Source: Flectobacillus sp. BAB-3569 (GTDB lineage: Bacteria; Bacteroidota; Bacteroidia; Cytophagales; Spirosomataceae). Taken from it: 64,000 nucleotides of DNA. Below are positions 56,879-58,361 of the stretch, piece by piece (position 1 is the stretch's first letter; every line of letters begins with the position of its first letter). The position numbers were made by a program, and so were the translations under genes. The notes beneath the pieces were generated by a model that saw only the letters and a list, made by a program, of their open reading frames with translations, searched no databases and had not been told where the DNA came from. The DNA lies in assembly GCF_002270355.1 (NCBI RefSeq), contig NZ_NJFZ01000017.1, positions 62,001 through 126,000 of the forward strand, written 5' to 3'.

Positions 56879-57011
56879 TATGTAATAATTGGGAGAATTG
56901 AATTGGGTATTGTAATTGTTTAATTTTTTAACATTTGTAAAACTGTGTAAAATTTAAGTAATAAAAAAAGCTTAAACACAGGTCAAAAAGTGTTCCAAAA
57001 CAACGAAAAAT

Positions 57012-57250
57012 AAAAATGTTAGTAAAATTAAAAAAGTGCCTTGGTTGCAAGTAGAGGGGCTTTTTGAGGTATTTCAGAGGATTGCGGAAAATCTGATATA
57101 AAACAAAAAAGCGAGCTAAGTAGCTCGCTTGCAAGTCCTTAATTCTGTAGGTTGTGGTCTCGTAGGGATTAAGACCTTGCTGATTATCAATGGCTTACAA
57201 GTCAAAACTTGCAACTGTTAGTAAAAATGTTAGTAAATGGGGCAAAAAAA
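57012..57250. other. Structured left margin of the small-gene island
   Basis: AAAAATGTTAGTAAA occurs at 57012-57026 and again at 57223-57237 (the second also preceded by GTTAGT). Between them lie the terminator at 57109-57130 and an interrupted stem: GCAAG-TC-CTTAAT (57131-57143) with ATTAAG-AC-CTTGC (57168-57180). On the plus strand 57018-57090 reads a stop-terminated peptide tail VPWLQVEGLFEVFQRIAEN without a start, possibly a gene remnant. No integrase is seen. Confidence 0.45.
57109..57130 (-). terminator. Terminator after the XRE repressor gene
   Basis: AAGCGAGCTA (57109-57118) pairs with TAGCTCGCTT (57121-57130), loop of 2 nt; on the minus strand it is followed by TTTTTTGTTTT. It ends the repressor transcript 120 bp after its stop. 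Confidence 0.8.
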
Positions 57251-57252
57251 AC

Positions 57253-57615
57253 CTAAGCCACACTTGCCAACACGCCTTGTCTTCTACTAACATACTTAAA
57301 ATTTCCGCTTTGCGTCAATTGGGATTCAGCTTTATAGGCTCTTATTTTCCAATTTTGAGCTTCTAATGTTGCTTCTTCAACTAATCTTTTCCAAAATCCA
57401 ACTGGTTCAGCCTTTACAGGTTCGATATCCAAGAAGTAGTTTAATGGTACTTCCAACACCTCACAAATTTGCTCCAAAGTCCTTACCTTAATAGTATCAT
57501 TATCCTCCATACTTTTAAATCCATCCAGCGACATTCCAATATGCTCGCAGAGCTTACCTTTTGTCATTCCCTTGTCTTTTAGGGCTTTTTTAAGTTTTTC
57601 CGAAAAATTTTTCAT
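57253..57615 (-). CDS. XRE/Cro-family repressor-like protein
   Basis: 120 residues from the ATG at 57615; an upstream in-frame ATG (57693) would place 26 poorly structured residues and overlap the operator region, so 57615 is preferred. HTH_3 domain at residues 1-65: EKLKKALKDKGMTKGKLCEHIGMSLDGFKSME, with NTIKVRTLEQICEVLEVPLNYFL, followed by a helical tail. This is the form of a phage or mobile-element repressor. Divergent from a Cro-like small gene at 57766, with phased repeats between them. Terminator at 57109-57130. Confidence 0.85.
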   Translation of the reverse strand: MKNFSEKLKKALKDKGMTKGKLCEHIGMSLDGFKSMEDNDTIKVRTLEQICEVLEVPLNYFLDIEPVKAEPVGFWKRLVEEATLEAQNWKIRAYKAESQLTQSGNFKYVSRRQGVLASVA

Positions 57616-57651
57616 AATGTTTTCGTTTTTTATGCCTAAATGTTTTGAAGT

Positions 57652-57731
57652 TTCGTTATTTATACCGATTTTTGTTGAACAAATACCGAACAAATAACGA
57701 ACATTAAGCGAATATATGATGAACTTCGTTT
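57652..57731. promoter_or_regulatory. Divergent switch region with five 11-bp phased repeats
   Basis: GAAC/GAAT words start at exactly 57677, 57688, 57699, 57710 and 57721, an 11-bp period: GAACAAATACC, GAACAAATAAC, GAACATTAAGC, GAATATATGAT, GAACTTCGTTT. An inverted pair TTCGTTATTT (57652-57661) and AAATAACGAA (57692-57701) overlaps them. It lies between the repressor and the Cro-like gene, where operators are expected. Confidence 0.75.
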
Positions 57732-57765: not shown

Positions 57766-57957
57766 ATGGAAGGTTCTTTAGACAAAATTCTAACTGCATA
57801 CAGAAAAAAAGCTAGAAAAGACAAAGCTCCGTTTAAACAAAAAATGGGTATTTTTTTCGGTTATGGAATCAGAGCAGTTGACCATAGATTAGAAGGTAGA
57901 ACTCCTTTAAGTGAAGATGAAGAGATATACCTTTTAAAAGAGCTTAAATTATTATAG
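57766..57957 (+). CDS. Small Cro-like DNA-binding protein candidate
   Basis: 63 residues from the ATG at 57766 (the frame opens at a TTG 7 codons earlier). Basic N-terminal half (AYRKKARKDKAPFKQK) and a possible HTH/turn region FFGYGIRAVDHRLEGRTPLS followed by an acidic helix. No family recognised, but size, position next to a divergent XRE repressor, and the XRE-like RLEGRTPLSEDEE tail fit a Cro-like partner. This is inference. Confidence 0.55.
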   Translation: MEGSLDKILTAYRKKARKDKAPFKQKMGIFFGYGIRAVDHRLEGRTPLSEDEEIYLLKELKLL

Positions 57958-57986
57958 ACCCTTTAAACTATGACAACTTTACACCC

Positions 57987-58361
57987 TTATACCCTAAGTC
58001 GAATAGAAACTGTATGCTCAATTTCAATCGTATTATTTTCCATCGGATTATTTGAATCTGAAGTTTTAATGCCATTTAATGAAGAGCTTACACACATTCT
58101 GAAATAAGATTCTACGCACTTTTTAAATTGTTCAAAATCTATCGGGTTTGTATTTGAAAAAGGGTTGCTTATTTGCAGAGGAGCTGATTGGTACGAAAAA
58201 TCAAGAGAGCAAGTTTGCATGATATCGCAATAGTATTCTAAATATCTCCCATTGAGTATCAACGAGAAGAAAGTTCTTGAAAACACGTGTTCATTATCAC
58301 AACTAAGTTTTGGTGATTTTTGAACGCATTTGTAGAAAGTAATTGTTGCGCTTTGAGTCAT
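57987..58361 (-). CDS. Hypothetical protein, minus strand within the island
   Basis: 124 residues, ATG start at 58361, neutral, seven Cys residues (for example YKCVQKSPKLSCDNEH and DIMQTCSLDF). No membrane segment or signal. No family recognised. It is the only minus-strand gene between the Cro-like gene and the plus-strand membrane-peptide operon; the intergenic distance to both sides is short. Could be a lysogenic-state cargo gene, but nothing supports a function. Confidence 0.55.
   Translation of the reverse strand: MTQSATITFYKCVQKSPKLSCDNEHVFSRTFFSLILNGRYLEYYCDIMQTCSLDFSYQSAPLQISNPFSNTNPIDFEQFKKCVESYFRMCVSSSLNGIKTSDSNNPMENNTIEIEHTVSIRLRV

Follow-up and report, generated by a model that had tools for sequence, protein, structure and literature searches.

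A conserved, promoter-phased row of 11-bp direct repeats forms a putative operator in prophage-type switches of Flectobacillus

The window analysed here is a 64,000-nucleotide stretch of the genome of Flectobacillus sp. BAB-3569 (genome G000 in our set), and positions without a locus name refer to it. A leftward gene for an XRE-family protein and a rightward gene for a 63-residue protein are arranged divergently around a 150-bp intergenic region with a predicted rightward promoter, a row of short direct repeats and an inverted repeat (Table 1). The XRE protein matches PF13443 (HTH_26) with 30.2 bits against a cut-off of 22, which identifies it as an XRE helix-turn-helix protein, and its PHROG match is to transcriptional regulators.

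The switch belongs to what looks like an integrated element of about 33 kb, provided that both ends found belong together. The tRNA-like fragment at the left end was recognised by eye, and ARAGORN reports no whole tRNA in the 64-kb window. The right end (contig C22, about 151.2–152.7 kb) carries a gene for a tyrosine integrase (PF00589) together with an intact tRNA-Arg(ACG), and with an integrase of this type and attachment at a tRNA gene the element qualifies as temperate. The ACTAACA/TGTTAGT repeats occur at both ends and are probably integrase arm sites. To the left of the XRE gene, positions 57011–57170 are near-identical over about 160 bp to the right end of the element (L044 14479–14638), which makes the left neighbour appear to be the end of a further element, in tandem at the same tRNA-Arg site.

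Table 1 Features of the switch in the window and repeat units of the related switches
Feature	Position	Strand	Basis or detail
Left attachment region: tRNA-like 3' fragment and ACTAACA/TGTTAGT repeats	57120..57252		Adjoins the 3' end of the XRE gene
XRE-family gene, 120 aa, HTH_26, likely prophage repressor	57253..57615	-	Pfam and PHROG
-33 element TTG of the predicted rightward promoter	57645..57647	+	TTG-N19-GATTTTTG
Dyad, candidate XRE operator	57652..57701		Axis 2.5 bases past TTTG, over the promoter and first units; 16 of 21 pairs
-7 element GATTTTTG (nAnnTTTG) of the predicted rightward promoter	57667..57674	+	Promoter scan
Row of five 11-bp units TTGAACAAATA CCGAACAAATA ACGAACATTAA GCGAATATATG ATGAACTTCGT	57675..57729	+	0, 11, 22, 33 and 44 bases past TTTG
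Invariant unit ACGAA	57697..57701	+	21–23 bases past TTTG in 7 of 7 switches
63-residue protein, first gene of the rightward operon, predicted four-helix HTH-like fold	57766..57957	+	AlphaFold2
Units, L002 and L026			Three ACGAA each
Units, L003			ACGCA and two ACGAA
Units, L018			ATGAA and two ACGAA
Units, L024			ACGCA, ACGAA, CCGAA
Units, L027			Four ACGAA

Between the divergent XRE gene and the small Cro-type gene, as a sequence-only reading of this DNA had claimed, the words GAAC, GAAC, GAAC, GAAT and GAAC stand 11 bp apart at 57677, 57688, 57699, 57710 and 57721. With the two preceding bases the units read TTGAA, CCGAA, ACGAA, GCGAA and ATGAA, starting at 57675, 57686, 57697, 57708 and 57719. 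Five GAA words in an 11-bp register occur once in the window and are matched by none of 100 dinucleotide shuffles, and 20,000 shuffles of the 150-bp intergenic region never put five GAA in register, whichever period between 8 and 14 is allowed. A generic test for three phased 5-mers, which presupposes no core, returns P = 0.01 for period 11, or 0.024 when all the periods 9–12 are allowed. Taken alone, the window switch would be only moderately strong evidence, and relatives are needed because this core-free test is the weaker one.

The XRE gene and its six relatives make seven members in the five genomes of the genus, three of them in G000, two each in G303 and G305, and none in G304 and G306 (L018, a Flectobacillus longus locus, coincides with G303:C39). 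Every member adjoins a divergent gene for a protein of 62–66 residues. Because the rows of L002 and L026 are identical, we count six independent switches, which still have common ancestry. In all seven, (A)CGAA-like units repeat at exactly 11 bp, three of them or more, and the 6-bp spacers between them have diverged. Related elements had been named in advance as the place where a random period would count against the row, and the period is exactly 11 throughout.

At period 11 the three-unit score is 13–15 of 15; the other periods from 6 to 18 reach 12 at most on that strand. Three (A)CGAA units at period 11 have a shuffle P of 0.0005–0.0015 in each of the seven switches. Over the first 33 bases, pairwise identity is 0.80–0.93 in the core and 0.17–0.67 in the spacers, with L002 and L026 set aside as a near-identical pair. 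The core-free phase test is not significant in L003 (P = 0.10) and L024 (P = 0.53), where the rows are visible only with the core known. In this comparison the conserved core is (A)CGAA, in three to five units, unlike the GAAC/GAAT of the sequence-only reading, whose helix-phased row in a repressor/Cro-type switch is upheld, with an exact period of 11 that shuffles fail to reproduce. As far as sequence can decide it, the comparison of seven switches settles that the row exists.

Row and predicted rightward promoter also keep a common register. The consensus of Bacteroidota promoters is TTG-N19-TAnnTTTG, and a box of the form nAnnTTTG lies upstream of the row in all seven switches, with a TTG 19–20 bp upstream of it in six. 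L024, where the -7 box was picked by word search and not by the promoter scan, is without TTG, and L026 offers another, equally scoring promoter candidate elsewhere. Three register positions, 10–12, 21–23 and 32–34 bases past TTTG, are found in every switch. The middle position is ACGAA in all seven and the third is ACGAA, GCGAA or CCGAA; the first ranges from ACGAA to TCGCA. The latter is the case of L002/L026, in which only TCGCA (3 of 5 bases) stands 10 bases past TTTG, three ACGAA follow at 21, 32 and 43, and the row proper begins at the second register position.

Taken modulo 11, the offsets between row and promoter in the six independent switches are 0, 10, 10, 1, 10 and 0, and an arc this narrow would arise from random phases with P = 0.004, with the caveat that the elements are related by descent. 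Given the period of 11 and the narrow arc of phases, both the period of the row and the helix face on which it lies relative to the promoter are therefore fixed. This register is a feature that the sequence-only reading missed, and with it we regard the row as a real, conserved, promoter-phased direct-repeat structure, putatively an operator, in a prophage-type switch. With a transcription start a few bases past the -7 box, the row would span approximately the first 45 transcribed bases. A consensus search found no leftward promoter; TAnnTTCG, seen by eye on the minus strand inside one unit of each row, has no -33 element and is too weak as a leftward promoter.

A row downstream of the predicted start could in principle work at the RNA level, as part of the rightward transcript's 5' leader, and the L018 leader does fold better than most shuffles (z = -2.53, 3 of 200). 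The leaders have no common fold, however: z is -0.28, -1.70, 0.59 and -2.53 in four of the seven, and the structures differ. There is no Rfam match at the gathering threshold, and an exact period of 11 bases fits the DNA helix better. We give an RNA role almost no credence.

The register to the -7 box would also suit a host protein, or RNA polymerase itself, that reads the row as a feature of the initial transcribed region of the promoter, and a similar layout is present upstream of gldK in one genome (G341) and, more weakly, in another (G242). A host site should be common, yet TTTG followed by the row at the right distance has three matches in 390 genomes of the order (the window switch, L027 and one in G367) against 15 for the reversed control, in a pattern that only the window switch and L027 can fit. 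Among the 30 gldK upstream regions examined, G341 and G242 alone show the row. A host reader is thus highly improbable, and a host regulon at gldK was rejected on the same count. The 30 loci include G341 and none from the window's genus; gldK is present in 59 of 61 genomes. In G341 (L146, G341:C19, about 38250), TATATTTG is followed by CCGAA, ACGAA, ACGAA and ACGAA at 10, 21, 32 and 43, a spacing counted by eye, and the gene is assigned by TIGR03525 (442 bits, cut-off 350). The row in G242 (L273) scores 13 of 15.

How far the row is restricted to the switches was examined at several scales. In 247,658 bases of elements and their surroundings, overlaps included and the seventh switch (L027) outside the set, the three-unit row has 7 distinct matches, all in the six switches. 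Period 11 gives 9 hits in this DNA (the 7 distinct ones and two repeated in overlapping loci), the control periods 8, 9, 10, 13 and 14 give none, and period 12 gives two (C22:99915 and 146592), neither at a switch. Across the five genomes of the genus, a strict pattern matches 7 times, with 5 of these in four switches, and its reversed control 9 times; the count does not rise above background, and it is the location that is informative. A search for three ACGAA units in 222 genomes of the family returned 9 matches against 7 for the control and no new family member. Four of the 9 are in three switches, and 3 of the other 5 lie inside ORFs. Since the row is confined to these switches in the elements and surroundings searched, its reader is probably encoded by the element.

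A widespread viral motif was considered and rejected. Four ACGAA units at 11 bp occur in 90 stretches of viral contigs, but the control word AAGCA has at least 120. Among the 80 stretches listed per set, 58 (ACGAA) and 63 (AAGCA) lie inside an ORF of at least 100 aa; diverged spacers and no such ORF are combined in 2 ACGAA stretches (one sequence twice) and 1 AAGCA stretch, again among the 80 listed for each.

Besides the row, the sequence-only reading had described an overlapping inverted repeat. This exists in the window, with arms at 57652–57672 and 57681–57701, and has a counterpart in L002/L026, but the other four switches are without it. Its axis is the best of 194 centres in the window switch, and the best dyads of L002 and L026 (14 and 15 of 21 pairs, best of 211 centres) lie on the identical +2.5 axis with different letters. 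On this axis L003, L018, L024 and L027 have 7, 4, 10 and 8 of 21 pairs. The +2.5 dyad is therefore common to two of the six independent switches; the axis was noticed after the fact, and the ranking of centres is the sole measure of its significance. The best centre is at -28.5 in both L018 and L027, which are otherwise diverged, at -43.5 in L003 and at -3.0 in L024, and two classes of dyad axis are possible. A search for recurrent 8-mers as XRE half-sites gave P = 0.007–0.09 in four switches and nothing in three. Judging from these patterns, the XRE's own sites seem to be dyads separate from the units, with letters that change between elements.

The main competitor for the row is nevertheless the XRE repressor. 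It may read the units as asymmetric direct-repeat operators, with the 63-residue protein as a co-repressor or anti-repressor that needs no DNA binding, like MOR of TP901-1. XRE genes adjoin all seven rows, and of the two proteins Pfam puts only the XRE in a DNA-binding family. It is a further point for this reading that some phage repressors bind asymmetric operators, for which PMC1934351 gives the example of mycobacteriophage L1. The profile of the 63-residue family compares very weakly with MOR (E = 1.1), and 6tri is among the structure matches. Against an XRE reader, the residues at positions that we take to correspond to Gln44/Ser45 of lambda repressor, mapped by eye on that protein, are LD, QG, DS, EA, MD and QN across the six types, whereas the core is constant. 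The +2.5 axis and the shorter element-specific dyads upstream of the -33 element (AATCACACTTTTGTACGATT in L002/L026, TTTTTACTTTTTGGTAAAAA in L003) also look more like XRE sites. We consider this reading unlikely, and because the Gln44/Ser45-aligned residues vary while the core is fixed, the 63-residue protein is the more likely reader.

The XREs are 47–84% identical to each other. Outside the genus, six Lactococcus plasmids match the XRE in part, and 194 genomes of the order yield seven matches that are more distant; there are also two Runella loci, and viral contigs and phages have no relative. A loose row scan of those nine distant loci flagged one place (L014, cores TAGAA, TGGAA and CCGAA). 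Near the XRE C-terminus (57253–57310), six of the seven XREs share fourteen identical residues (NFKYVSRRQGVLAS), and the identity of the DNA extends beyond the stop codon. The stretch contains TGTTAGTA, so the gene end and an integrase arm site may overlap.

The 63-residue protein has no name in Pfam, PHROGs or NCBIfam: none of the seven family members has a Pfam HTH match at E = 10, and the window's protein has no NCBIfam match at E = 0.01. Beyond the genus, the family has no match in 390 genomes of the order at E = 1e-4 and none in viral contigs, and six weak hits (E = 0.002–0.007) in 395 genomes of the phylum at E = 0.01. AlphaFold2, given the seven-sequence alignment, predicts four helices (pLDDT 89.3, pTM 0.70) and no strands, hence no wing. 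Foldseek matches of the model to HTH repressors are weak, the best being lambda repressor at E = 3.6, and VIA aligns it to that chain (3kz3) with Z = 7.0 and an rmsd of 3.0 over 61 residues, a level that is common by the tool's own account and can reflect a common helix arrangement. As these matches are weak, the label HTH rests on the predicted model. The small proteins are 28–42% identical between groups and so more divergent than the XREs; Arg36 is kept in all seven, and position 41 is Lys or Arg, a constancy that counts for this protein as reader of the row. Just 3' of the gene, at 57972–57993, the 22-bp sequence GACAACTTTACANCCTTATACC is exact in all three elements of G000 (window, L002 and L003), has one change in L018 and is not kept in L024, L026 and L027.

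Our main explanation, which we hold to be moderately probable, is that the row is a cooperative head-to-tail operator at the start of the early operon, read by the 63-residue protein in competition with the XRE repressor. The row would then be the operator of a prophage-type decision switch, with the product of the first early gene as its most likely reader. Concerning its mode of action we infer cooperativity, autorepression and mutual exclusion, as follows. Beginning at or shortly past the -7 box and covering the initial transcribed bases, a bound string of protein would block rightward transcription, which amounts to autorepression. It would also interfere with transcription of the XRE gene, since leftward transcripts have to pass through the row or begin within it. 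Element-specific dyads would serve the XRE repressor; in the window switch and in L002/L026 these straddle the -7 box and the row start, so we propose that binding of the two proteins is mutually exclusive.

A natural chimera, L024, favours the small protein as the reader. Its XRE is 84% identical to the window's, and its small protein is 77% identical to that of L003 and 34% to the window's. The row of L024 resembles that of L003 in its spacers (0.67 against 0.50) and in having ACGCA as a variant first unit. This pattern could be explained by linkage alone, as the row adjoins the small gene. A constant core alongside divergent small proteins fits poorly with reading by the 63-residue protein, unless few residues matter.

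According to the sequence-only reading, the array differs from the usual phage switches. The lambda CI/Cro system has a divergent repressor and small HTH gene, and dyad operators bound by both proteins. The switch described here likewise has a divergent repressor and a small HTH-like gene around a common control region, but the element conserved in all seven cases is a direct-repeat row. The lambda CII sites (TTGC-N6-TTGC, period 10, two units, with the activator at -35) share the short core, the 6-bp spacer and the direct repeat, and differ from the row in its three to five units, its period of 11 and its location downstream of the -7 box.

The claim of a difference is only partly right, because coliphage 186 has phased direct repeats between repressor and first early gene, in the form of seven Apl sites (PMC7498355). 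In the 186 record (U32222), cI runs leftward, CI sites lie over pR, the seven Apl sites begin two bases past the -10 box of pR, and the early genes start with apl. The resemblance extends to the cI-type repressor leftward, the early gene rightward, direct repeats from the -10/-7 box onward and a small regulator as the first early gene. Apl binds such direct repeats cooperatively, as described in PMC7498355. By analogy, the 186 Apl operator is the closest precedent, and the row most likely works like it. The two differ in that Apl sites are 10–11 bp apart with the best autocorrelation at 10, whereas the window's row has exactly 11 and a different core; moreover, pL is known in 186 and a leftward promoter was not found in the window switch.

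This precedent raises the question of whether the small protein is itself a recombination directionality factor (RDF, an excisionase) like Apl or Cox, with the row in the switch as a second job. Direct repeats one turn apart are given as the usual RDF layout, and Apl-like RDFs as first genes of the early operon, in PMC7498355. The element, too, has a tyrosine integrase near tRNA-Arg. Apl sites, however, are also present at the 186 attP, and a search for ACGAA pairs with 9 or more of 10 matches found none in five end stretches, four of them left ends of elements and the fifth the right end of the window's element. Comparison of the family's profile with Apl by hhalign gave a probability of 0.3%, for a shallow profile against a single Apl sequence, and the AlphaFold2 model has neither strands nor a wing. 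With no Apl homology detected and no ACGAA pair at the ends tested, an excisionase role is not supported and appears improbable, and on present evidence we do not place the switch in the Apl/Cox group of RDFs.

Head-to-tail protomers, one per helical turn on direct repeats, have been proposed for P2 Cox, lambda Xis, RdfS and BldC (PMC7498355, PMC11963761), and we propose the same arrangement for the row in the window. RdfS and BldC are winged HTH proteins in the account of PMC11963761, whereas the fold predicted for the 63-residue protein consists of four helices without strands. A more specific version of our explanation, offered tentatively and with rather less than even confidence, would be that a different family of proteins has arrived at an Apl-type switch operator. 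In this version, a lambda-repressor-like HTH protein with four helices and no wing, about 63 residues long and confined to Flectobacillus elements in the genomes searched, would string head-to-tail on an operator whose 11-bp period and promoter phase are fixed by selection; it would not be an excisionase, and the XRE would read overlapping dyads of changing sequence.

If this is true, helix-phased direct-repeat operators would have at least two origins in temperate-phage switches. One would lie in P2-like phages (Apl/Cox) and the other in Bacteroidota elements, whose small protein has no detected kinship and no sign of an excision role. Seven rows, six repressor types and one chimera would form a natural series in which operator phase, repressor specificity and promoter position each change independently. 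In open-licence PubMed Central we found no title on such a switch for Flectobacillus prophages or Bacteroidetes lysogeny.

Elsewhere in the elements, a P-loop protein starting MN(P/Q)KGNVWGFFGTRNTGKT is encoded in both (L044 8736–9443 and L004 1076–1783) and is possibly, from its sequence, the packaging ATPase of a tailless phage; the L044 copy has no Pfam family above the cut-off, and the L004 copy has a weak PHROG match. Defence-like cargo is also present, in the form of an AAA_21 ATPase beside a small ORF and a KAP NTPase (L006 8931–10765; L044 5069–7045).
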